In this document: positions 4,237 through 29,745 of the stretch, piece by piece
How positions within the stretch are numbered: the first letter of the stretch is position 1
How the letters are laid out: each line of letters starts with the position of its first letter
Assembly (NCBI GenBank): GCA_030696455.1
Contig: JAUYSH010000040.1
Coordinates: 1 to 32,840, forward strand
Length of the DNA stretch: 32,840 nt
Direction of reading: 5' to 3'
From: Elusimicrobiota bacterium
GTDB lineage: Bacteria; Elusimicrobiota; Elusimicrobia; UBA1565; UBA9628
Notes under the pieces: model-generated
Seen by the model: the letters and a program-made list of their open reading frames with translations, nothing else
What the model was told of the DNA's origin: nothing
Database searches by the model: none
Made by a program: the position numbers and the translations under genes

Positions 4237-7200
4237 GTGAAGCGACCCCTCGCCTTCGCCCTCGCCTTCCTCATTGTCGCCCTGTCCCCGGGCGCGCCCG
4301 CCTACCAGGCGTTCGCGCAGACGGTGGGCCGGACCGGCACGGCGACGGGCTCCGCGGGCGACGCGGCGACCTCGGTCAACTCCGGCGTCGGCAGCGGCGG
4401 GATGTCCGCGCCGCTGTCGCTGCCCGTCCAGACGCTCGGCCTCAACGGGGCCTTGGCGCCGGCCGCCGTGCCGGCCCTGAACGCCGCGGCGGTCCCCTCC
4501 CTGGCGCCCTCGGTCGCCGCCGCCGGCCCCGTCGCCGCGCTCTCTCAAGCGCAGGCCCTGCGGCCCGCCGCCGCCGCGGCCGCGATCCCGGCGGCGGCCA
4601 AGCCTCTTGTCCCCGGCGCGCTTCAGCCCGCCGCTAAGACGGCGAACGCTCCGGGAGGCCTGTCGGCCGCCTCGAAGCAGATCGAATCCCTGTCCCAGAC
4701 CGCGAAGCCGGTGCTCGACGGCGTCAAGCAAGGCGACGCGACCGGAGCCCTCAACAGCGTCTATGAGAACTCGTCCCGGCGCGGCGAGCTCGGCGCCGTG
4801 CGGACCCCGTCGGGCTCCGCGGCCCTTCGCCAGGGGCTGAAGCGCTCGGCGCCCTCGGCCGAGAAGAAAGCCGCCGAGGAGGTTCCGGCGGCCCTGGCGC
4901 CCGTCGCCAAGCCCTCCGTTTGGCAGCGCATCAAATCGACCTTCGACCTCTCCGAGTTCAACAAGAGCGAGAAGTCCTACATCGCCGGCCAGGCCGTCTT
5001 CCTGCTCGCGATCTCGGTGTACCTCGCGTCCTTGCCCCTGCTCGTGAGCGCTTTGACCGGCGACGCGGCGATGACCGGCGTGGCGCGCATGGTCCACTAC
5101 TGGGTGTTCGGCGGCGCGTCCCTGTTCGCGGGGGCGGTCGTCGGCAAGACCCCGATGAAGCGCATCCTCGTCGGCGCCGCCGGCGGCCGGGCCATGCTGT
5201 TCGGCTCGATCGGCGTCCTGGCCCTGATCGGGGGCCTGCCCTGGGCCGCCTTCCTCGTCCTCGTCGGCGTCAACGCGGCGATCGTCGCCCACAACCACCT
5301 CGTCGACATCGACACCGGCGGCGCGGCCAAGATCTTCAAGGGGGCCGACCAGAAGAGCACCGACCGCAAGATCGAGAAGGCCGGCTACGTCTACGACTTC
5401 ATCTACTACGGCATGATGCTGATCGTGCCCGCGATGATCGGCCTGCCGATGGACTGGATCGACGCGCGCTTCGGCCCGGGCATCGGCGCCGGCGCGGGCT
5501 TCGCGGTGTTCGCGGCCCTGATGGGCGTCGTATCCTTCATATACGCCAAGCGCGTGGTCACCATCGGAGACATCGCCTCGGCCCCGTGGGCGGGCTTCAA
5601 GAACTACGTCGGACGCATCCTCGGCGCGTTCAAGACCTTCGGACGCATCCTCATCGACGTGCCGCGCCGCAACTGGGCGACGGCGAAGATCATCCTCCAG
5701 AACAAGGCCATCCTCGCGCGCTCCGCGATGGCGACGACGGAGAACTTCGTCGAGGACGCCCTCTTCGCGGTCGTCCTGCCCACCTTCGCCATCGACATCC
5801 TCAAGGTGGGCGCGTTCGGCAACGGCCTGCTTCTCTCCGCGATCACCGCCGGCGGCCTCGTGGCCTCGATGTTCCTGATGAAGCGCATCCAGGGCCTGCA
5901 GGCCAAGCACGGCACCTACAAGGTCCTGGCCGGCCTGACCGCGGTGGCGGCACTCGCCTTCGTGCCCTCGATCGGGCTGTGGCTCGTGCCCTCGCTGGCG
6001 CTCGCCATCCCCGCGGTGTTCATGATGAAGCTGATGCTGCAGCCGCTGCGCTCGCGCATGCGCGCCTTGCTTCAGGTCGAGATCAAGAACGATCCCAAGG
6101 CCGCGCCGTTCGCCGACGACATCTACAGCCTGATGACCTTCGTCGAGGTGATCGCGGCCGGCGCGGGCGGGCTTGCCTTCGCGTGGCTGTTCCACAACTC
6201 CATGCCCGGCTCGGCGCTCGCGCTGGCGCTCGGCGCGCTGGCGCCGATGAAGATCGTCACGGTCACCTTGTTCGCGCTGGGCTTCGTGTACCTCGGGGGC
6301 CTGCGCTGGGTCAAGCAGCAGCTCAGCAAGCCGACGCATACGGTCCACAAGTCGCCCGAGGGCAACGAGGCGAAGATGCTCGCCCAGCTCGCGGTCAGCC
6401 TGAAGGAAAACGGCCTGCCGGAGCACAAGTCGGCGACGGTCGCCGGCGCGGCGAGCGAGGACCTGCCCACGGTCGTCGTGCTCGCGCCCGCGTCGCGTCA
6501 CAAGATCGCGCTCGCCCGCGAGGGCGGACGCCAGGCCGAGGGGAACTTCCATCTCGTGCTCGACGCCTCCTGGCTGATCCAGGAGACCTATCCCGACGGG
6601 CGCACTGGGCTGCGCGTGAAAAAGGGCGTGGTCTTCGACGAAAACGGCCAGGCGACGGTCGTGGAGTATGAGGTTCCGCGCCGCGTGCGCTACTTCGCGA
6701 ACTACTTCACGCTCGGCGCCAACGACCGCGACGACGGGAACGTGTTCGAGACGAACCTTGACGTGCCTCAGTCGAACTCGCTTCAGCTCGAGAAGGTGGT
6801 CAACGACAAGCTGGGCACGCGCCTGATCCTGGCCGCCGGCGGCGTCGCGGTGCCCGCGACCTTGGCCCTGCTCATGCCGCTGCACCACCTCGCGGACCGG
6901 CCGATGGGCGCCCAGGGCACGGTGCAGGTGGCGGCGATGCCCGCGCCCGGATCCCGCGCGGCCGAGGTCTCCCGGCTCGTCGACGACTACCTGGCGGCGT
7001 TCCAGGGCGCGGAGCTCGTCGTGAAGCCCTCCGGCCCCCAATTCCACTCCGGCCGCGGGGTCAAGTTCTTCAAGAAGTCCGAGCGCGACGCGATCATCGC
7101 GCACGCGTTGGCGCTGGCCGTCGACGCGCAGATGACCGAGGACGGGGCGGTGCTCCTCGACGAGCGCGTCGACTCCGCTCCGCTCGACCGCGGCGGCCGC

Positions 7201-8991
7201 AAGATGGAGACCACGGGCCGCATCCTCGTCGCGCGCGCCCCGTGGGGCGGGGCGGCGACGACGGGCATGTTCGCCCGCGTCGGGCCGTGGGGCAAGCCCA
7301 CGACCGCCGAGGCGGCCGACCCGCGCGACAACGCGACCGTCGAGCCCATGGAGAAGCTCTTCGCCGAATGGAGGAAGGCGGGGCTCATCGACGAGCGCGG
7401 CGCGCGCGAGCTCGAGGCGCTGATGCGCGAGACGGGCGAGAACGCGCTCAAGGCGATCGCCGAGTACGAGAAGTCCTTCGGGCGCAAGGAGGGGGAGCCC
7501 TACCAGGCGCAGAGCGACATGATCGGGCTCGATGTGATGATCGAGAAGCGCGACGGGAAGCTGACGCCCGTGATCATCGAGGTCAACGATCACGACTCGG
7601 GCGGCCAGTACAACCTCGATCAGATGCACCCCGAGCGCTCCGGCGAGCACTCCCGCGAGTGGGTCGCGACGATGCTGCAGCGCGCGCGCCGCGACGCCCT
7701 CAAGGGCAAGCGGCTCGTGATCGTCGGGGCCGGCTACGAGGGCAAGAAGCCGATCTTCGAGCGCGCCCGCGAGCTCGGGGTCGACATCATCCTCATCGAC
7801 AGCGCCAAGAGTTGGGCCAACGACCCGCGCTACATCTCCGAGCTGATCCCGACCGACAACACCAAGCCGGCCGAGGCCCTGACCATCGCCCGCAAGAAGC
7901 TGCAGCGCTCTGTCCGCAAGAACGGCAAGCTCGACGGCATCACCACCTTCTGGGAGGACGACGTGGTCCTCACGGCGGACCTGGCCAAGTCCCTGGGGCT
8001 GCCGTACCACAGCCCCGACGCCGCGCGCACCGCGCGCAGCAAGTTCGAGACGCAGGCCGTCCTGGCCTTGAAGGGCGTGCCCGCCGCGCGCCAGCAGACG
8101 ATCGACAACCTGTCCACGGCCGCCGACGAGAAGGAGCGCGAGGCCATGGTCGCCAAGTTCCGCGAGTCCGCGTCCGAGGTCGGCTTCCCCGCCGTGATCA
8201 AGCCCGTGTCCGGCGCCGCCGCCATCGGCACCGAGAAGGTCTCCTCGCTCGAAGAGGCCGTCGGGGCCTACCGGCGCATCAGCGCGATCATCAACCCGAA
8301 GACGGACCCCATCTTCGCCAACAACTCCGACCTGCTCCTGATGCAGTATCTCGACGGGCACGAGTACGACGTGGACCTGGTCATGGTCGCGGGCAGGCCC
8401 GTGTTCCAGTCCGTGGCGGACAACAAGCCCACCCGCGAGCCGTCCTTCCTCGCCACCGGCTCGCGCCTGCCCAGCACGATGACCTCCCGGCAGCAGAAGG
8501 AGTCCGCGGATCAGGCCATCGCGTCCGCCCAGGCCCTGGGCCTGACGGACGGGGTCGTCCACATGGAGGGGAAGTACACCTCCGAGGGCGCCCGGCTCAT
8601 CGAGGGCAACGCGCGCATGGGCGGCACCTACGTCCACGACTGGGTCAAGACCGTCTGGGGCGTGGACCTCGCCGAAGAGGGTTTCATGGCGGCGGCGCGC
8701 ATCGGCGGGCGGCCTTTCAGGCCCGCGGCCCCGCTCGTCCACCTCGACGGCGACTTCGTCAACTCCGACAAGGCCGGCGTGATCAAGGTCCTCGAGCTGC
8801 CCGAGGAGGCCCGCCGCCTGCCCGGCTTCATCCGCTTCCGCATGGTCAAGAAGGCCGGCGACCGCATCACGACCGACGAGGGCGGCGGCTACACGCGCGT
8901 GGCGATGCTCGAGGTCGGCGGCAAGAACGCCGATGAGGCGAAGCGAAACCTCGAGGCGATCAAAGCCAAGATCCGCTTCGTCGTTGAATAG
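4237..8991 (+). CDS. MFS-like membrane protein fused to tandem ATP-grasp ligase
   Basis: The 1584-residue protein starts at GTG. Residues 1-28 form a signal-like segment (ending FAQ), followed by an Ala/Pro-rich linker to about 225. Residues 247-690 contain about 12 hydrophobic segments in an MFS-like arrangement. The rest resembles two ATP-grasp halves, as in carnosine synthase. Half one (about 745-1150) has K930 in a VVKPSG motif, an HSGRG loop, and E1115 and N1117 in IIEVND. Half two starts with a Rossmann-like strand (VIVGAG, about 1160) and has K1322 in AVIKPVSG, E1376 in the hinge, and E1456 and N1458 in IEGNARMGG. Both halves retain ATP and metal residues. ATP-grasp enzymes of this kind ligate amino acids or peptides. 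The fusion suggests a small peptide made and exported by one polypeptide. Whether the N-terminus is truly exported is unclear, since the ligase needs cytoplasmic ATP. Confidence 0.78.
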   Translation: MKRPLAFALAFLIVALSPGAPAYQAFAQTVGRTGTATGSAGDAATSVNSGVGSGGMSAPLSLPVQTLGLNGALAPAAVPALNAAAVPSLAPSVAAAGPVAALSQAQALRPAAAAAAIPAAAKPLVPGALQPAAKTANAPGGLSAASKQIESLSQTAKPVLDGVKQGDATGALNSVYENSSRRGELGAVRTPSGSAALRQGLKRSAPSAEKKAAEEVPAALAPVAKPSVWQRIKSTFDLSEFNKSEKSYIAGQAVFLLAISVYLASLPLLVSALTGDAAMTGVARMVHYWVFGGASLFAGAVVGKTPMKRILVGAAGGRAMLFGSIGVLALIGGLPWAAFLVLVGVNAAIVAHNHLVDIDTGGAAKIFKGADQKSTDRKIEKAGYVYDFIYYGMMLIVPAMIGLPMDWIDARFGPGIGAGAGFAVFAALMGVVSFIYAKRVVTIGDIASAPWAGFKNYVGRILGAFKTFGRILIDVPRRNWATAKIILQNKAILARSAMATTENFVEDALFAVVLPTFAIDILKVGAFGNGLLLSAITAGGLVASMFLMKRIQGLQAKHGTYKVLAGLTAVAALAFVPSIGLWLVPSLALAIPAVFMMKLMLQPLRSRMRALLQVEIKNDPKAAPFADDIYSLMTFVEVIAAGAGGLAFAWLFHNSMPGSALALALGALAPMKIVTVTLFALGFVYLGGLRWVKQQLSKPTHTVHKSPEGNEAKMLAQLAVSLKENGLPEHKSATVAGAASEDLPTVVVLAPASRHKIALAREGGRQAEGNFHLVLDASWLIQETYPDGRTGLRVKKGVVFDENGQATVVEYEVPRRVRYFANYFTLGANDRDDGNVFETNLDVPQSNSLQLEKVVNDKLGTRLILAAGGVAVPATLALLMPLHHLADRPMGAQGTVQVAAMPAPGSRAAEVSRLVDDYLAAFQGAELVVKPSGPQFHSGRGVKFFKKSERDAIIAHALALAVDAQMTEDGAVLLDERVDSAPLDRGGRKMETTGRILVARAPWGGAATTGMFARVGPWGKPTTAEAADPRDNATVEPMEKLFAEWRKAGLIDERGARELEALMRETGENALKAIAEYEKSFGRKEGEPYQAQSDMIGLDVMIEKRDGKLTPVIIEVNDHDSGGQYNLDQMHPERSGEHSREWVATMLQRARRDALKGKRLVIVGAGYEGKKPIFERARELGVDIILIDSAKSWANDPRYISELIPTDNTKPAEALTIARKKLQRSVRKNGKLDGITTFWEDDVVLTADLAKSLGLPYHSPDAARTARSKFETQAVLALKGVPAARQQTIDNLSTAADEKEREAMVAKFRESASEVGFPAVIKPVSGAAAIGTEKVSSLEEAVGAYRRISAIINPKTDPIFANNSDLLLMQYLDGHEYDVDLVMVAGRPVFQSVADNKPTREPSFLATGSRLPSTMTSRQQKESADQAIASAQALGLTDGVVHMEGKYTSEGARLIEGNARMGGTYVHDWVKTVWGVDLAEEGFMAAARIGGRPFRPAAPLVHLDGDFVNSDKAGVIKVLELPEEARRLPGFIRFRMVKKAGDRITTDEGGGYTRVAMLEVGGKNADEAKRNLEAIKAKIRFVVE

Positions 8992-20856: not shown

Positions 20857-23800
20857 ATGAAACGAATCATCGCGGCGTCCGTCTCCCTTTCGCTCATCCT
20901 CGTCTCGGCGCCGCTTCCCGCGTGGTCCCAGGTCTCCTCCGCGATGACGGGCTCGGCCTCGGGCGTCTCGGGCTCGGCCGCCGGCGCGGCGCGCAACGGC
21001 GCGATCCCGCAGCTCGCGATGCCCGCCCTGAGCTTGACGGCTCCCGCGCTGTCCGGCGCGCTGTCCGCGCCGATGGCCAACAGCCCGGTCCCGGGCGCCA
21101 ACCGGCGCGCCCCGATTTCCGCCGCGTCTCCGGTCGAGCAGCGTCAGGCGCTCGCGATCGCCGTGCCGCTCGCCGCGGAAGCCCCGGCGCCCCTCGCGGC
21201 GGCCACTCCGCAGATTCCCGCCTCCAAATCCGCAGCCTTGAGCCCGGTCACCGCCGATGCGAATAGCCTCGCCGCCGCCCGCCTCGACGTCGCGGAGGCC
21301 GCGGGAGCGATCCAGAGGGGCCCGACGTCCAGCTCGCGCTGGGCCGCCGCGCGCATGATGGACCGCCTGCTCGGCGTCGAGGAAGCCGGCGAGCGCGAGC
21401 CGGTCGTCGAAGGCCTGCCGCCGGCCGGAATTCTGTCCGCGGGGTTGACGCCCGCCTCCGCGTCCGAGCGCTCGGGTCTGGCCTCGGTGCCGTCGCCGCA
21501 GGCTCCGGAGAACGCTCCCGGCCGGTCCAAGCTCGGCGGCGCGCTCAAGACGGTCGCGACCTTCGCCGCCGGCGCCGGCCTGACCATCGGCCTGCAGCTG
21601 GCCGCCGTGGCTCTGTTCCCCGCGATCTTCGGCGTCGTGCCCGTCGCGGCGGTCTGGGCGGTCAGCTCGGGCCTCCTGCTCTTCCCGGTCGCGCTGTACG
21701 CGCGCTACCGCCTCGCCAAACGCGACTCCCCGCGCCTGAACAAGGTCAAGCTGATCCTGGACCTCTCGCTCGGCGCCTTCACCGGCGCCGCCTTGATCGC
21801 CGTCCCGAGCCTCGGCCTCGTCCTCTCGACCGCCGGCGTGCTCACGGCCGCCGCGCCCCTGCTGGCCGTGGCCGGCGGGCGCTGGTTCGGCAGCAACTCT
21901 CTCGCCGACACGGTGCTGACGTGGGCCGTGCTCGGCTTCACGCCGGCCGTGGTCGGGGTCGCCTCCGCGGCGGGGCTCATCGGGCTCGCGCCCATCGTCG
22001 GGCTGATGATGCTGCCCGTGATGACGACGATCGCCTTCTTTCTCGGACGTCTGATCCACTCCGCCGAGACGGGGGCGCCTTTCTCCGTGCCCGGCTCGAT
22101 GCAGAAGATCCGCTTTCCGTCCTTCCAGTGGGTGATGATCGGCGTGGTGTTCGCCCTATTGACGGGCTACTCCGCCGTCTACACGAACGTCGCGTTCGGC
22201 GTGTGGACCTTGCTCGGCGGGCGCTCGGGCAACGCGCTCTCGACCTTCCGCGTGAACTCCGTCTGGACCTTCCTTAAGAAGATCCTGAGCTACATCACGT
22301 TCAACCGCCTCTACTTCGCGCTGTTCGCGTACACCGCCTTCACCGGCTTCGCGAGCCCGCTGACCTTCCTCGTCATCGCCTTCGCGGGCGAGCGGGCCTC
22401 GGTCTGGACGGACAAGCTGCTTGGCCGCATCCTGCCGAAGGCCGCTCCCGCTCCGTCGGCGCGGACGGCGCCGGTGGAAGACCCGAGCAGGCTCGACGAC
22501 GCCCCGCCGAAGTGGCCGGCGTTCCATTATTGGGCCAAGTCGTTCCTGATGCTCGGCTCGATGGCCGGCATCGGCGTGCTTCTCTCCTTCACCGTGTTCG
22601 GCGTCACGAGCCTGCTGACCAACCTCGGCATCGCCGCCGTCCTGGCGTTCGTGCCCTTCTTTTTCGCCAAGAAGATCATCAAGCTCGTCATGAAGGCCAA
22701 GCCCACGACCAAGGAGCAGGATCCCGAGTTCTTCGAGATCATGGAGGGCCTGCGCGACCGGATCAACGCCGGCCGCCGCGCGAAGGGGAAGAAGGAGATC
22801 CCGATGCCCGAGATGGTCATCGACCCGATGGACGCGCCGAACGCCTACGCGACGGGCCGCAGCCCGTTCGCCGCGATGGTGGGCGTGACGCGGGGCATCA
22901 AGGCGATGACGCTCGAGCCCGAGATCGTCCGCGACGGCGTGGTGCGCCTGATCGCCTCGACCGACGCGGGCAGCAAGGAGTTCAAGGTCTTCCGCCGGGC
23001 CATCGCGGGCTCGGTCACCGGCGTGCCCGCCGATGCTAAGCCGTCCGAGGTCGCGTCCTCGGTCCTCAAGGCGGACCGCTCCGAGCTCAAAGCGCTCGGC
23101 GTGCGCATGCTGCGCGGCGTTCTGTCCCACGAATTCTCTCATGTCATGGACCGGCACATGCTGTCGGGCTCCATCGGCGGCGCGATCGCCTCCGGCGTCG
23201 CCTTCGCGTCCTACGGCGTGATGTGGGCCGTCGGCCACGCGAAAGTCATGGTGCAGAAGGCGCTCGGCCTGGCGCCGAAGGAGGCTGCGGAGGATGAGCG
23301 CGCGGCGGGCGTCGAGGGGCCGGGCTCCAAGACGCATGCCGTCGATCCGATCTCGACCGGCGTGATCCTCAAGTCGCTGCCGGCGCTCCTGCGGCTGTTC
23401 GCCGCGCTGTGGGCGCCGGTGGTGCTCCAGGTCCTGCAGATGGCGTCCTCGCGCAACAACGAGGGCATGGCCGACGAGGACGGCGCGCTGCTCAGCGAGG
23501 ATCCGGAATCGCTCGCGCTCGCGCTGGGCCTGCTGACGACGTGGCGGCCGGGGGCGGGGTTCCGTCTGCCGGGCGCGGCGGTCCCGCGCGCGGCGTCCCT
23601 GCAGCACATCATGATCGTCAACCCGCTCGAGCAGCTCGACAACGCGGGCGCGCTGCCCCGGACGTCGGCCTCCGGCGGGCCGACGCGCGCCGACGACCTG
23701 ATCTTCGAGCTGTTCATCACCCATCCCAACACGGGCGTGCGCGTCCGCAAGCTGTGGGACATGTCCGAAGCCATGAGGGGGACTCGTCCCAAGCCGCGTC

Positions 23801-25731
23801 CGCCCGAGGACGGCGGAGGCGGGGGGACGAAAGTCTCTTTCGCTCCGCAGGCCGGCGCCGCCTCCGAGAAAATCGGGGGCGGTCTTCTTCGGGGAGCATG
23901 GGCGAAGCTGAAGGCTTCCCTGCGCGTGCTTCCCGACGAAGGCCGCAACCGGCAGTTCTGGATCTACACCGCGGGCCAGGCGCTCGTCCTGCTCGGCGGC
24001 AACTTCCACTACACGGCCCTGCCCAACCTCGTGGCGCCGGCGAAGGAGGACGCGGCCAAGCTCGGCTACAACCGCGCGATCAATTGGGGCGCGCAGGCCG
24101 GAGCCTCGCTGGCCACCGGCCCGCTCGTCGACCGCACCTCGACGCAGAAGGTCATCATCTGGACCAACCTCGGCCGCTCCGCGCTCATGCTGCTGGTCCC
24201 GGTCCTGTTCTTCTCCGGCTACTTCGGCTTCGCTCTTTTCACCGCCCTCGTCGCGGGCGCCGGCTTCCTCCAGATGGTGGGCATGACGGCGGGCGCGGTG
24301 GCCTTCAACCGCATACTCGCCGGCGACGTCGCCCACTACAACCGCGCCAACGCGGTCTCGACGATCGTGATGAACGTCGTCGGCGTCGTGGGCCCCCTGC
24401 TCGCGGGCGCGTTCATCGCGGCGGTCAGCGCTCACTTCGGCTTGCTCAGCGGAAACGCGATGTCCTACGCGGTGTACGGCGTCCTGCTGCTCGCCGCCGC
24501 GGTCGGCTACGGCCTCTTCCTCAAGCTGCCTCGAGACGAGATGATGGGGGCGCGCCGGGAGCTGTCCGTTCTCCTGAAGCGCGACGGCGTCGGCGGCGCG
24601 GCGTTCCGCGGCGTGACGGCCGGACAGATCGAAGGCCGCCCCGCCATTTCCGTCGAGGTGGACGGCGATCCGTCCCGGGCGGTCGTGCCCGCCGTCTTCG
24701 GCGGCTTCGCGGTCCGGGCCGTCCCGCGGCGCCGCGTGCTCAGCGAGGTCGCCCAGGGCTTCAAGACGATCTGGGCGGACCGCTTCCTGCGCCTGTATCT
24801 GCTCTCGACGACGGTCGCGGTCATGTCGGGCGACGCGCTGCTCTTCGCGGCCCTGCCCCGCTTCATCGCCGACGTGCTGCAGGCCGGGCCGGGGTCCTTC
24901 GGGCTCTTTCTCGCGGCGGCGGCGCTCGGTTCGGGCGCGGGCTCCGGCCTGATGGCCCTCCTGCGCGACCCCGAGCAGATGGCGCTGGCTCCTTCGGCGC
25001 GCGCGTTCCGCGCGCAGCTCGCCGCGCGTGAGCCGGCGCTCGACGAAAAGGCCCTCGACGGCGCGGCGGCCGCGGTGCGCGCGTCGGTCCCGGCGCTTCT
25101 GGCGCGCTACAAAGCCGAATGGGCGAAGGGCGCGCCCGCGGTCGCGGCCGAGCGCTTCGGCGCCGACCTCGTCGCCGAGGCCGCGCGCGCGGCCGGCGCG
25201 GCGCTGGGCCGCTCCGAGCCCGAGGCGCTGGCGCTTCTCGAGGCGACGGGCGCCGCGGGCGACCTGCGCGCCTGGTCCGCCCTGCGCGGGGCGAAGCTCC
25301 TCGCGCGCGCGTACGCCGACGCGACGACCGGCATGAACCGGCTCGAGCGCCAGGGCAAGTGGACCTCCTGGCTGCACGGATTTTCCTGGCTCGCGTACGG
25401 CGCGCTGTTCCTCACGGGCAACCTGCATCTGGCAGTGGGCCTGATGCTCCTGTCGACCTTCCTCGGCGCGCCCGGGGTCGTGGTCTGGACGAGCCTGACG
25501 ACCAAGGTGGTCGCCGGCTCCTATCGCGAAAACCAGGGCAAGATCTACTCGGCGCTGTACTTTTATCAACTGATCTTCGCCATCGTCGGCGTGCTGCTCG
25601 TCGGCTTGATGATGGCCTCCTTGCCCACGATGACCGTGCTGTGGATCACGGGCGCCGTCATGGTCCTGTGCGCGCTGTGCGACTTCATCGCGCCCTCGCT
25701 GATCTTCCCGATCGACCGGAAAAAACGATAA
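20857..25731 (+). CDS. M48-type metalloprotease fused to MFS-like domain
   Basis: The 1624-residue product has a signal peptide (1-25, ending AWSQ), an Ala/Pro/Ser linker to about 215, several membrane segments (about 225-340, 420-525, 550-605) and an M48 zinc protease domain. H758-E-F-S-H762 is the zinc site, and E869 in NEGMADE is the third ligand, 107 residues on as expected for M48. TM segments before the zinc helix recall HtpX/Ste24-type membrane proteases. From about 1032 to the end is an MFS-like 12-segment domain, interrupted by a helical charged loop (about 1385-1505). HtpX-type enzymes degrade misfolded membrane proteins; fusion to a transporter domain is unusual. The active-site side of the membrane is not certain. 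The mRNA is probably leaderless. Confidence 0.8.
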   Translation: MKRIIAASVSLSLILVSAPLPAWSQVSSAMTGSASGVSGSAAGAARNGAIPQLAMPALSLTAPALSGALSAPMANSPVPGANRRAPISAASPVEQRQALAIAVPLAAEAPAPLAAATPQIPASKSAALSPVTADANSLAAARLDVAEAAGAIQRGPTSSSRWAAARMMDRLLGVEEAGEREPVVEGLPPAGILSAGLTPASASERSGLASVPSPQAPENAPGRSKLGGALKTVATFAAGAGLTIGLQLAAVALFPAIFGVVPVAAVWAVSSGLLLFPVALYARYRLAKRDSPRLNKVKLILDLSLGAFTGAALIAVPSLGLVLSTAGVLTAAAPLLAVAGGRWFGSNSLADTVLTWAVLGFTPAVVGVASAAGLIGLAPIVGLMMLPVMTTIAFFLGRLIHSAETGAPFSVPGSMQKIRFPSFQWVMIGVVFALLTGYSAVYTNVAFGVWTLLGGRSGNALSTFRVNSVWTFLKKILSYITFNRLYFALFAYTAFTGFASPLTFLVIAFAGERASVWTDKLLGRILPKAAPAPSARTAPVEDPSRLDDAPPKWPAFHYWAKSFLMLGSMAGIGVLLSFTVFGVTSLLTNLGIAAVLAFVPFFFAKKIIKLVMKAKPTTKEQDPEFFEIMEGLRDRINAGRRAKGKKEIPMPEMVIDPMDAPNAYATGRSPFAAMVGVTRGIKAMTLEPEIVRDGVVRLIASTDAGSKEFKVFRRAIAGSVTGVPADAKPSEVASSVLKADRSELKALGVRMLRGVLSHEFSHVMDRHMLSGSIGGAIASGVAFASYGVMWAVGHAKVMVQKALGLAPKEAAEDERAAGVEGPGSKTHAVDPISTGVILKSLPALLRLFAALWAPVVLQVLQMASSRNNEGMADEDGALLSEDPESLALALGLLTTWRPGAGFRLPGAAVPRAASLQHIMIVNPLEQLDNAGALPRTSASGGPTRADDLIFELFITHPNTGVRVRKLWDMSEAMRGTRPKPRPPEDGGGGGTKVSFAPQAGAASEKIGGGLLRGAWAKLKASLRVLPDEGRNRQFWIYTAGQALVLLGGNFHYTALPNLVAPAKEDAAKLGYNRAINWGAQAGASLATGPLVDRTSTQKVIIWTNLGRSALMLLVPVLFFSGYFGFALFTALVAGAGFLQMVGMTAGAVAFNRILAGDVAHYNRANAVSTIVMNVVGVVGPLLAGAFIAAVSAHFGLLSGNAMSYAVYGVLLLAAAVGYGLFLKLPRDEMMGARRELSVLLKRDGVGGAAFRGVTAGQIEGRPAISVEVDGDPSRAVVPAVFGGFAVRAVPRRRVLSEVAQGFKTIWADRFLRLYLLSTTVAVMSGDALLFAALPRFIADVLQAGPGSFGLFLAAAALGSGAGSGLMALLRDPEQMALAPSARAFRAQLAAREPALDEKALDGAAAAVRASVPALLARYKAEWAKGAPAVAAERFGADLVAEAARAAGAALGRSEPEALALLEATGAAGDLRAWSALRGAKLLARAYADATTGMNRLERQGKWTSWLHGFSWLAYGALFLTGNLHLAVGLMLLSTFLGAPGVVVWTSLTTKVVAGSYRENQGKIYSALYFYQLIFAIVGVLLVGLMMASLPTMTVLWITGAVMVLCALCDFIAPSLIFPIDRKKR

Positions 25732-25980: not shown

Positions 25981-26049
25981 GTTGGGACCAATGCCTAGGC
26001 CCTGTTGGGACCTATGACCCGCCTCCGAAATCGATTCGGGCGTTATAAT
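25981..26049 (+). promoter_or_regulatory. promoter of the M50-S8 gene with doubled dyad
   Basis: Boxes gTTGGGACCAATGCC (25981-25995) and TTGGGACCTATGACCC (26005-26020) have GGGACC cores 23 bp apart, as before the HAD/nuclease operon. A perfect TATAAT at 26044-26049 lies 23 nt past the second box. Unlike its relatives this promoter gives a leader of about 20 nt with AGGAGA at 26065-26070. Confidence 0.62.
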
Positions 26050-26077: not shown

Positions 26078-29000
26078 ATGAAGCGCTTTCGCTCCGTAAT
26101 CGCCCTCGCTCTCTCGCTCGCCCTCGTCGTCGTTTCCCCGGGCTCGAGCGCTTATCACGCCGCCGCGCAGACCGTCGGCGCCTCCGTCGGTTCGTCGGCC
26201 TCGGCGGGCGTCTCCGGCGTTTCCGGCGCGAGCCTCGGCCGCGCGTCCGGCGTCTCCTCGATCCCGATGATGTCTCCGTCGGCCCTGACTCTCTCGCCGG
26301 TTCTGTCCGCTCCCTCGATCGTCCCGTCCGCGATGCCCAACGCCGCCGTCGTTTCCGCCGCGCCTGTCGCCGCGAAGACCGCGGCCGCGCCCGTCGCGCT
26401 GAAAGCGCTGACGCCCATCTCCGCAAAGGCGGCGACCGAGCGGTTACGCGAGGGAGTGTCCCTTCCGCACGCCGTTAGAAAGGGACCCGCCGTCTCCTCG
26501 CTGCAGACCGTCGTGTCCGGCGTCGATTCGAAGTCCGCGGAGACGCAGGCCGCCGAGGCCGCCCTCCAGTTCGACGGCGCCTTCGCGAAGAAGAAGGATG
26601 ATTCCAGCAAGGGCATGCCCGATCAGGACACGGACGAGAACGGCAACCCCTCCCGCGACGGCGGCACCGACGAGCTCGGCAACCCGCGCCGCACCGGCGG
26701 CGAGGGCGGGCCCGACGACACCTCCGATCCCGACTACGGCGGACGCGGCGGCAACGACGGGCTCTTCGGCGCGCTGCGCCACGGCCGCCTGAACGCGTTC
26801 GCGGCCGGAGAGAAGGCGAGCGTCTCGCTGCGCGCCGCGAAGAAGGACAGCGGCAAGGGCATGCCCGACTCGGGCGATTCCTACGACGGCACGGGACGCC
26901 CCACGGAGAGAGGCGGGGACATCGACGAGCTCGGCAACCCGCGCCGCACCGGCGGCGAGGGCGGGCCCGACGACCGCTCCGACCCCGACTTCGGCGGCGA
27001 CCGCGGCGGCAACAGCGGGCTTTTCGGCTTGTTCGGCGTCGGCCTGCTCGGCGGCGCCGCGGCGACCGTCGCGGGCCTGTCCCTGGGCTCGCTCGCGATG
27101 TTCCCCATGATCATCCTGTCGCTCGTGCTCCACGAGATCGGCCACGCGCGCATGGCCGACAAGCTCGGCGACCCGACGGCCCGCCTGCAGAACCGCGCCT
27201 CCTTCAATCCCCTGCATTGGAAGACGCACATCGACCCGGTGTGGACCTTGCTCGTCCCCGCGGCGACCTTCCTGTTCGCCGGCTTCATCTTCGGCGGCGC
27301 CCGGCCCGTGCCGGTCGAGCCGCGCTACTTCAAGAATCCGGTCAAGGGCATGGCGCTCGTCGCCCTCGCGGGCCCCGCGGTCAACATGGGCTTGGCCGCC
27401 GCCGGCGCGCTGGCCGTGACCGGCGCCGTGGCCGCGGGCCTCGGCGCGGGCGTCATCGCGACCTTGGGCATGTTCGTGTTCCTGAACGTCCTGCTCGCGG
27501 TTTTCAACATGATCCCGCTGCCGCCGCTCGACGGCAGCCACATCCTCAAGTCCTTCCTCCCTTATCAGGCGCGCAACGCCATCGACGGCGTCATGGAGCG
27601 CCTGGGGCCGATGGGCGTGCTCCTGCCGATCCTGCTGGTGTTCATGGTCGCGGGCGGGGCGATCGTGGGCGCCTCCGCGTTCGTCGCCAAGCTGCTGATC
27701 GGCGGCGTCATGGCCGTGACCGGCGTGCAGACCGCGAGCGCGTTCCTGCCCGCCTTGGCGGCTCTTGGCCTGGCGGTCGGCCAGATCGGCGCGAGCCAGT
27801 CCGCGAGCCGCGCCGCGGCGCAGCAGGCCCCGGCCGGCCCCTCCGTGCCCGGCGCGGCGTCGGGCGGCGCGAACGCCCCCGTCGACCTCATCGTGATGTT
27901 CGGCGAGAAGCGGACCCGCCTCCATGACGCGCACATCACGAACGTGGACGTGAACCTGCCTTCCGGCGTCGAGCAGTACACCCGCCTTCAGCAGGCGATG
28001 CTGGCCCAGCTCGAGACCGCCGGCCTCGACGGGTCCGCCCTCGAGCCTTATAAGGCGACCCCGCTCGCCACGTACGCGCGCATCAACGCCGCGACGATCC
28101 GCGTCGACGGCTCCTCGGCCGCGCAGTTCACGCGGGAGATGGCGGAGCGCGGCTTTTCCGTCTACCCGAACACCGAGCGCAAGATCATCCGCCCCGTTCC
28201 CGTTTCTCCCGAGGACATGGACCCCGGGGCGCGCAGCGCCGTCACGATGGACGAGAACCTCCGGATCGTGAAGGCCGACCTCGTCCAGGCCGAGGCGGAG
28301 AAGATGTGGGGCAAGCCCGTCCTCGGCTTCTGGTCCGGCCTGTGGGCCAAGGTCTTCAAGTCCGAGCCGCCCCAGCCCCGGATCGGCGTCATCGATTCCG
28401 GCGCGGACGTCTCGCACCCCTTGCTGCGGCGCGTCAAGGAGGTCAAGAATATGACCTCCGGAGAGAACGTCGATGACATCGGCCACGGCTCGTGGGTGCA
28501 CTCCACCGTCCTGCACATGGCGCCGTGGTCGCGAGCCACGACGCACTACAAGACCTTCCTGAACGGCGGCGCGACCCTCGACGACATCCTCAAGTCCCTG
28601 ACCCAGGCCGGCAACGACGGCAACCTCGTGATCTCCAACTCCTGGGGCTCCGATGACGGCGACCCGAAGAGCCCGGACTCCCTGCTCGTCAAGAAGTTGG
28701 CCGCCGAAGGCCGCATCATGGTCTTCGCCGCCGGCAACGCCGGCTCGGGCAAGAACACGATCGGCTCCCCCGCGATCGTGACCTACAAGGACGCGGCGAC
28801 CGGCGCGATCCGCGTCGTCTCCGTGGCCGCCGCCGGCCGCGACAAGAAGATCGCCTATTTCTCCTCGCGCGGCCCCGGCTCGCCCACGACCGCGCGCGAT
28901 CCGAACTACAAAGACCACCGCCCCGATCTGACGGCCGTCGGCTATAACATCGAGGGCGCCTGGCCCGCGGCGCTCAACGAGGCCGACCGCGTGGACGGGG

Positions 29001-29245
29001 AGAAGGGGCCGGTGAAGGCCATCTCCGGCACCTCGATGTCCACTCCCGGCGTGGCCGGCGCGATCGCGCTGCTCGCGATGATGTTCGGCGTCACCGAGAT
29101 CGGCCCGAAGCTCGACGCCATCGTCAACGCCGTCATGTCGACTCTGGATAAGACGGGCCAGAGCCCCGACGCGGAAGGCCAGGGCTTCATGAACGTCGAC
29201 GCCGCGTACCGCAAGCTCAAGGAGATTTTTTCAGCGAAGCCGTGA
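26078..29245 (+). CDS. site-2 protease (M50) fused to subtilisin (S8)
   Basis: The 1055-residue product has a signal-like N-terminus (1-31, ending AYHAAAQ), an Ala/Ser-rich linker, and two copies of an Asp/Gly-rich unit 85 residues apart (DELGNPRRTGGEGGPDD at 198-214 and 283-299). A membrane metalloprotease domain follows: H352-E-I-G-H356 in a hydrophobic segment, a FNPLH...HIDP loop, GPAVN, and D485 in PLPPLDG. A propeptide-like beta domain (about 610-730) precedes a subtilisin domain with D773 (VIDSGAD), H803 (GHGSWVH), N887 (AAGN) and S986 (GTSMS). Both proteases have complete catalytic residues. M50 enzymes cut within the membrane and S8 enzymes cut exposed chains, so sequential cleavage by one protein is plausible. 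It has RBS AGGAGA. The PrcB-like protein at 3628 is a candidate partner, since PrcB works with a subtilisin in Treponema. Confidence 0.87.
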   Translation: MKRFRSVIALALSLALVVVSPGSSAYHAAAQTVGASVGSSASAGVSGVSGASLGRASGVSSIPMMSPSALTLSPVLSAPSIVPSAMPNAAVVSAAPVAAKTAAAPVALKALTPISAKAATERLREGVSLPHAVRKGPAVSSLQTVVSGVDSKSAETQAAEAALQFDGAFAKKKDDSSKGMPDQDTDENGNPSRDGGTDELGNPRRTGGEGGPDDTSDPDYGGRGGNDGLFGALRHGRLNAFAAGEKASVSLRAAKKDSGKGMPDSGDSYDGTGRPTERGGDIDELGNPRRTGGEGGPDDRSDPDFGGDRGGNSGLFGLFGVGLLGGAAATVAGLSLGSLAMFPMIILSLVLHEIGHARMADKLGDPTARLQNRASFNPLHWKTHIDPVWTLLVPAATFLFAGFIFGGARPVPVEPRYFKNPVKGMALVALAGPAVNMGLAAAGALAVTGAVAAGLGAGVIATLGMFVFLNVLLAVFNMIPLPPLDGSHILKSFLPYQARNAIDGVMERLGPMGVLLPILLVFMVAGGAIVGASAFVAKLLIGGVMAVTGVQTASAFLPALAALGLAVGQIGASQSASRAAAQQAPAGPSVPGAASGGANAPVDLIVMFGEKRTRLHDAHITNVDVNLPSGVEQYTRLQQAMLAQLETAGLDGSALEPYKATPLATYARINAATIRVDGSSAAQFTREMAERGFSVYPNTERKIIRPVPVSPEDMDPGARSAVTMDENLRIVKADLVQAEAEKMWGKPVLGFWSGLWAKVFKSEPPQPRIGVIDSGADVSHPLLRRVKEVKNMTSGENVDDIGHGSWVHSTVLHMAPWSRATTHYKTFLNGGATLDDILKSLTQAGNDGNLVISNSWGSDDGDPKSPDSLLVKKLAAEGRIMVFAAGNAGSGKNTIGSPAIVTYKDAATGAIRVVSVAAAGRDKKIAYFSSRGPGSPTTARDPNYKDHRPDLTAVGYNIEGAWPAALNEADRVDGEKGPVKAISGTSMSTPGVAGAIALLAMMFGVTEIGPKLDAIVNAVMSTLDKTGQSPDAEGQGFMNVDAAYRKLKEIFSAKP
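26669..26719 (+). repeat. 51-bp exact direct repeat, copy 1
   Basis: This stretch is identical to 26924-26974, 255 bp (85 codons) downstream, inside the M50-S8 gene. The flanking KGMPD...DG...GNP sequence is also repeated less exactly. Identity at synonymous sites suggests a recent duplication or gene conversion. Confidence 0.85.
26924..26974 (+). repeat. 51-bp exact direct repeat, copy 2
   Basis: Second copy of the 26669-26719 unit, encoding DELGNPRRTGGEGGPDD just before the first M50 membrane segment. Confidence 0.85.
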
Positions 29246-29275: not shown

Positions 29276-29303
29276 GCTCATCTTGCCGCCGGCAAGACTG
29301 AGC
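29276..29303 (+). terminator. hairpin after the M50-S8 gene
   Basis: A 12-bp stem with one bulge (29276-29287 with 29291-29303) and loop GCC lies 30 nt after the stop codon. No real T-run follows. It is a probable terminator. Confidence 0.5.
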
Positions 29304-29358
29304 GCTTGATTCTAAATGCGACCGGCGCCGCAACCATACCGTTACGGAGATTCGTGCC

Positions 29359-29745
29359 ATGACTTCCTCAGCGATGTTCATAGTCGAAGACGACGATCAT
29401 TTTCGCGAGACCTTCATCGACGTCATGTCGTTGAAGGGCATCGAGGTGACCGGCGCGCGCACCGGCGACGAGGCCATCAAGGCCCTGCGCCAGAGCCAGC
29501 CGTCGGTCATCATCATGGACGTCCAGCTGCCCGACGTGCACGGCTTCGACCTGTGCCGCAAGGTCAAGCGACTCGACAACCAGAAGGACACCCCGGTCAT
29601 CTTCGTGTCGGCGTCCACGCAGTACGCCGACCCGCGCGACCGCGTCGAGGGCCTCCTCGCCGGCGCCGAGCAGTTCCTGCCCAAGCCGATCACCGTCGAG
29701 AAGCTGTGGGGCGAGATCGAGCTCGTGCTCGGGAAACATCACTAA
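29359..29745 (+). CDS. stand-alone response regulator receiver domain
   Basis: The 128-residue product is a complete CheY-like receiver with no output domain: acidic pocket E10-D11-D12, phosphoacceptor D54 in IIMDVQLPD, S84 in FVSAS and K109 in LPKP. It should be phosphorylated by a histidine kinase or act as a phosphate shuttle; no kinase is in the window. A GGAG-type site precedes the ATG. It converges on fbaB with a shared terminator. Confidence 0.92.
   Translation: MTSSAMFIVEDDDHFRETFIDVMSLKGIEVTGARTGDEAIKALRQSQPSVIIMDVQLPDVHGFDLCRKVKRLDNQKDTPVIFVSASTQYADPRDRVEGLLAGAEQFLPKPITVEKLWGEIELVLGKHH

Follow-up and report, generated by a model that had tools for sequence, protein, structure and literature searches.

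Can the two proteases of a site-1/site-2 pair be built into a single polypeptide? The question is raised by a gene at positions 26078 to 29245 of a 32,840-nucleotide stretch of DNA (hereafter the window), which is contig C137 of the 147-contig, 4.0 Mb MAG of a member of the Elusimicrobiota. On the forward strand, which also carries its two conserved neighbours and the flanking elements described below, this gene encodes both an M50 intramembrane metalloprotease and an S8 subtilisin. In reviewed S2P systems, a separate site-1 protease acts before S2P (PMC10202637). The S1P (MBTPS1)/S2P system of regulated intramembrane proteolysis likewise pairs one subtilisin-type with one M50 protease, but they are separate proteins there and one chain here, where the ordered cutting of a common substrate is hypothetical. 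No M50-S8 fusion is described in the open literature that we searched; the S2P review mentions neither subtilisins nor fusions (PMC10202637), and a survey of prokaryotic serine-protease domains does not mention M50. Each domain clearly belongs to a known family; what we did not find described in that literature is their combination, the propeptide tether between them and the conserved locus in which they lie. Should the two activities cooperate, nature would have provided a joined site-1/site-2 enzyme, and the hand-over of a first-cut product to an intramembrane protease could be followed in one protein by means of two point mutants. Even without cooperation, it represents a conserved protease architecture in a mostly uncultured phylum.

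The gene begins with ATG and runs in a single frame of 1055 amino acids. Its N-terminal leader (26078-26587, residues 1-170), recognized by a profile match, consists of a signal-like stretch ending in AAAQ and an Ala/Pro/Ser-rich linker. Two acidic repeats follow (26606-27022, residues about 178-232 and 260-315), evident in the sequence as copies of the form GMPDxDxDENGNPxRDGGxDELGNPRRTGGEGGPDDxSDPDxGGRGGN. They are also found in orthologues, with more copies in locus L020, and are kept by most of the orthologues that have the S8 domain only; whether they bind calcium or serve as a surface linker is a question that their composition raises. The M50 domain (27023-27742, residues 316-555) was assigned by both Pfam (Peptidase_M50, E 1.6e-11) and fold, and is separated by an Ala/Gly/Pro-rich, low-confidence linker (27743-27883, residues 556-602, pLDDT mostly below 50) from an I9-like subtilisin propeptide (27884-28237, residues 603-720), delineated from the secondary structure of a model and from structural alignment. 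The S8 catalytic domain (28238-29212, residues 721-1045; Peptidase_S8, E 7.6e-27) has a predicted mature start at about residue 721. The features that define the M50 family, namely an HExxH zinc motif and a third-ligand Asp in (N)xxPxPxLDG, with a Pfam score above cut-off, are all present: the translation reads HEIGH at residues 352-356 (H352, E353 and H356), with N477 and D485 in NMIPLPPLDG. The S8 site residues D773, H803, the oxyanion N887 and S986 occur in subtilisin order. The original prediction of two complete proteases in one chain, with E353 and S986 as active-site positions, is thus confirmed on the translation.

Close relatives encode a C-terminal tail of roughly 100 residues after the subtilisin. 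The copy in the window stops early, at residue 1055, and a remnant of the lost tail, RLILNATGA, is encoded at 29303-29329, identified through sequence identity with the tail of L008.

Recurrence of the fusion in Elusimicrobiota

A search of the phylum and a scan of named genomes yielded full-length relatives from its own genus, family and order; those closest to it are MAGs of Elusimicrobia/Elusimicrobiota, or bacteria that group with these. The fusion recurs among them, and 22 full-length fused proteins, all from Elusimicrobiota, could be aligned. Loci in which the gene is cut by a contig end (L065, L078 and L079), and one in which M50 and S8 flank a run of N and are not in the same frame (L074), were left out of the fusion counts, either way. 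The catalytic columns of both sites are invariant in the fused orthologues, in 17 of 17 proteins of one alignment and 22 of 22 of another, at 42-86% identity, which disposes of the possibility that homologues carry one dead site and upholds the claim that both active sites are intact. All fused forms that the genome scan turned up belong to Elusimicrobiota; its patterns were derived from this family, so that unrelated M50-S8 fusions elsewhere could be missed.

That the source is a 147-contig MAG invites the suspicion of a frameshift, a chimeric assembly or a chance reading frame. Against this, the M50-S8 junction lies in one frame in every fused orthologue compared, that is, in the window and 21 other genomes, including the closed chromosome CP096137 (L072), which also encodes the full-length fused form. 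Compared with four relatives, dN/dS is 0.31-0.59 for M50 and 0.21-0.40 for S8; it is clearly below 1 in M50, propeptide and S8, and mostly higher in the leader, the acidic repeats and the linker, residues 556-602 of which are among the least conserved regions. Given the invariant sites, the one-frame junctions, the closed chromosome and these ratios, the fusion is neither a chance frame nor a product of assembly or frameshift, and an artefact is hardly credible. The suspected frameshift at residues 600-730 is not there; the region is the I9-like propeptide. Purifying selection acts on both halves.

Evolutionary distances in M50 and S8 co-vary across the 22 proteins (r 0.88). In a tree, the M50 domains of the fused proteins stand apart from the standalone M50 enzymes of about 215 amino acids found in the phylum, with M50-only forms of the locus on the fused side. 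The co-varying distances and the separation of the M50 domains are consistent with one old fusion, a single origin that the tree does not itself prove.

Membrane part, junction and subtilisin

The M50 part was modelled alone in the second of two AlphaFold models, and its best fold match in the PDB is the S2P of M. jannaschii, 3b4r (Foldseek probability 1.00, E 4e-3, with a low TM-score; the model has a long helix). A sequence search of the PDB with the M50 part also finds 3b4r, and hydropathy places hydrophobic segments on the core motifs. The part is 44% identical, over 176 columns, to a 213-amino acid standalone M50 of Elusimicrobia. With such standalone enzymes and 3b4r it shares the core of HExxH, GPxxN and NxxPxxPLDG; whereas they come without a serine protease, here a leader, acidic repeats, a propeptide and a subtilisin are attached. 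From sequence and model, the M50 half is a membrane-embedded protease of S2P fold, for which cleavage of transmembrane segments is predicted from the family.

On which side of the membrane the subtilisin lies is decisive for a site-1 role, as site-1 proteases act extracytoplasmically. In S2P enzymes the core is oriented such that the chain emerges from the LDG helix on the cytoplasmic side, so that one more crossing would put S8 outside and two more would put it inside. Beyond the core, hydropathy and both AlphaFold models show one long helix (38 to 71 residues), making the count of crossings ambiguous. S8 probably lies outside the cytoplasm, as the leader hints at export, although the same leader also precedes AAA+ proteins.

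The other AlphaFold model, of residues 316-1055 (mean pLDDT 78), orders the chain into a helical M50 core, a linker predicted to be disordered (about 549-597), a small domain (about 602-703) and a subtilisin fold. Directly before the catalytic domain, model residues 287-388 form a beta-alpha-beta-beta-alpha-beta arrangement. Of the solved structures, the one that the model matches best is 3whi, pro-subtilisin E in its unautoprocessed form (Z 36.9, 332 residues), in an alignment that spans model residues 285-730 and thus covers propeptide and enzyme together, and mature subtilisins align from model residue 408, which is residue 723 of the protein. The S8 half itself has a subtilisin fold, matching many subtilisins with Z above 32, and human site-1 protease (S1P/MBTPS1) is among its best matches by sequence and also among those by fold. 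A Pfam I9 sequence search did not recognize the propeptide region, which was detected by fold comparison. Judged by its predicted fold, then, residues 603-720 are an I9-like propeptide at the junction rather than filler. Because the model matches unautoprocessed pro-subtilisin E and mature subtilisins start at about residue 723, S8 is probably made as a zymogen and released by its own cut near residue 721. Such a cut is predicted to detach the mature subtilisin from the M50 part, and the working form may then no longer be a single chain.

Known pro-subtilisins (3whi, Tk-subtilisin and Tk-SP, 3afg) resemble this protein in having an I9-like propeptide before an S8 domain, with Z 32-37 over both; they differ in being secreted and soluble, whereas the propeptide of the present protein is joined to an intramembrane protease. 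The same genome holds an S8 paralogue, on contig C74 (L002), that is 39% identical and also has the leader, a propeptide-like region and an S8 domain with GTSM, but is without an M50 domain.

Neighbours and the relation between the two activities

The gene lies between a fusion of an HtpX-type M48 protease with an MFS transporter (20857-25731), which carries the same leader, and a stand-alone CheY-like receiver (29359-29745; Pfam Response_reg, 7e-24) directly downstream. Homologous frames of the HtpX-MFS protein were found at 14 loci, with a tblastn match at the M50-only locus L031 as well. It lies upstream of fused, S8-only and M50-only versions, and the receiver adjoins all three alike. The two proteases are not always kept together: the locus holds an S8-only version, with the leader retained, in five genomes (G084, G164, G209, G274 and G276) and an M50-only version in two (G257 and G199), and an unfused protease could substitute. 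M50 searches of the S8-only genomes of genus g3 returned no M50 of the fused kind, only weak RseP-like matches, and those of g7 gave just the ordinary standalone enzyme; S8 searches of the M50-only genomes found no S8 orthologue. Another family of the same order has fused forms too, so the S8-only and M50-only versions are more simply read as having lost one half. The existence of S8-only and M50-only versions means that the halves are separable and that neither needs the other in cis.

A promoter-like element, TTGGGACCTATGACCC, of the palindromic type GGGnCCTAGGnCCC, lies at 26005-26049, with TATAAT about 24 bases further on. It is conserved before most orthologues, both fused and S8-only, and a variant precedes the M50-only L031. 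As a marker of a regulon the pattern was dropped, as its strict form has one exact match in its own genome and its relaxed form 16 matches against four for a reversed control, a modest excess.

We tentatively favour, with a probability of about 0.45, a joined but separable double protease that acts on a common set of membrane proteins. This reading builds on the domain order, the intact and conserved sites, the predicted fold of the propeptide and the conserved locus. In essence, a membrane-anchored, site-2-type M50 protease would come after the signal-like leader and the long acidic linker, and its last membrane helix would lead through a flexible linker to a folded I9-like propeptide blocking the attached subtilisin. 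As other pro-subtilisins do, the subtilisin would most likely cut just behind its propeptide, near residue 721, and the M50-propeptide part would stay in the membrane, able to hold or to release the mature enzyme. Both sites could then act on one pool of membrane or envelope proteins: exposed parts would be trimmed by the subtilisin and membrane stubs cleared by the M50 site, presumably in that order. The double protease would form one arm of an envelope-proteolysis locus together with HtpX-MFS and the CheY-like receiver, to which a role is assigned only provisionally. That both activities are under selection, and usually together, argues for a shared job; that self-cleavage would part the halves, and that each half persists alone, argues against an obligate one-chain machine. 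The proposal of a self-contained site-1/site-2 machine accordingly survives in part. Two complete and conserved domains do recur in one chain, which keeps it plausible, but the separation of the halves in five plus two genomes speaks against it. Its strictest form, a single-chain cascade of site-1 and site-2 cuts on one substrate, tuned by the receiver, is a subset of the double-protease reading and seems to us unlikely.

Two other explanations differ in what they make of the junction. The halves may simply be made together, cleave themselves apart and act independently, the fusion providing equal dosage and delivery to the membrane. A propeptide at the junction predicts just such a cleavage, the locus persists in S8-only and M50-only versions, and in this genome the leader also heads other joined proteins that are usually separate; a polyprotein of this kind is a possibility to be taken seriously, if a somewhat doubtful one, as both active sites have stayed together in 22 fused genomes over a large divergence and a pure anchor would need no intact HExxH and LDG motifs. 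Alternatively, the active subtilisin might release or activate the M50 site in the chain that carries it, or in a partner, with no common substrate. There is a parallel in Bacillus, where secreted serine proteases relieve the inhibition of SpoIVFB, and both the direct linkage through propeptide and flexible linker and the receiver beside all versions, suggestive of a controlled switch, would suit it. The M50-only genomes, however, lack an S8 orthologue to do the switching, and a general rather than targeted look at the proteins identified in the window revealed no SpoIVFA- or BofA-like inhibitor, leaving such cis-regulation rather improbable.

The shared leader and other fused proteins

The leader of the double protease is common to at least 22 ORFs of the genome, mostly encoding large proteins; a profile built from nine of the proteins found at least 15 further ORFs in the genome, nearly all long. 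Its general form is a signal-like stretch ending at about AQ, followed by PxLSPxxLSLxPxLSxPxxAPxA. Within the window it begins the ORFs at 143, 4237, 9090, 10434, 12775, 17602, 20857 and 26078, and elsewhere it is found at L090 and L147-L159. It is frequent in this order and hardly occurs in the remainder of the class, as far as sampled. Its cargo is rich in proteostasis factors and includes HtrA, CtpA, Rce1-like, PspA, LonB-type AAA+, MoxR, ClpB and ATP-grasp proteins. Because several of these are ATP-dependent or normally cytosolic, the leader is no simple proof of export, and would be either a non-classical export signal or the mark of a hitherto unknown compartment.

This lineage repeatedly builds giant fused proteostasis proteins behind the shared leader, HtpX-MFS, M50-ClpB and Bat proteins among them, and so frequent a habit weakens the argument that what is fused must serve one pathway. 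A 2461-residue frame on contig C144 (L089, 42-7424) joins the leader to M50 and a two-domain ClpB/ClpC-type AAA+ unfoldase, which is complete (AAA_2, 9e-64; ClpB_D2-small, 1e-17). M50 and AAA+ matches also share a long frame in ten more genomes (G112, G126, G160, G181, G189, G210, G223, G239, G256 and G277), and joining a membrane protease to an unfoldase of its own would be an FtsH-like design. On contig C29, a frame of 3182 residues (L090, 322-9867) contains the leader, DUF58, three VWA domains and TPR repeats, as in the proteins of Bat operons, with a leader-bearing MoxR (L157) just downstream. The leader frame of 2714 residues on contig C69 (L152, 465-8606) combines an S8 subtilase with HEAT repeats, a GH77 glucanotransferase and a GDE_C amylo-alpha-1,6-glucosidase. 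Within the window, the frame at 4237-8991 carries the leader, an MFS-like membrane region and an ATP-grasp domain of the L-amino-acid-ligase type, and its product is possibly a joined dipeptide synthase and exporter. Palindromes resembling GGGnCCTAGGnCCC lie upstream of several leader genes, at 26005-26049, 17522, 20761 and 10391, and the window holds 36 such elements with up to two mismatches, against 17 expected.
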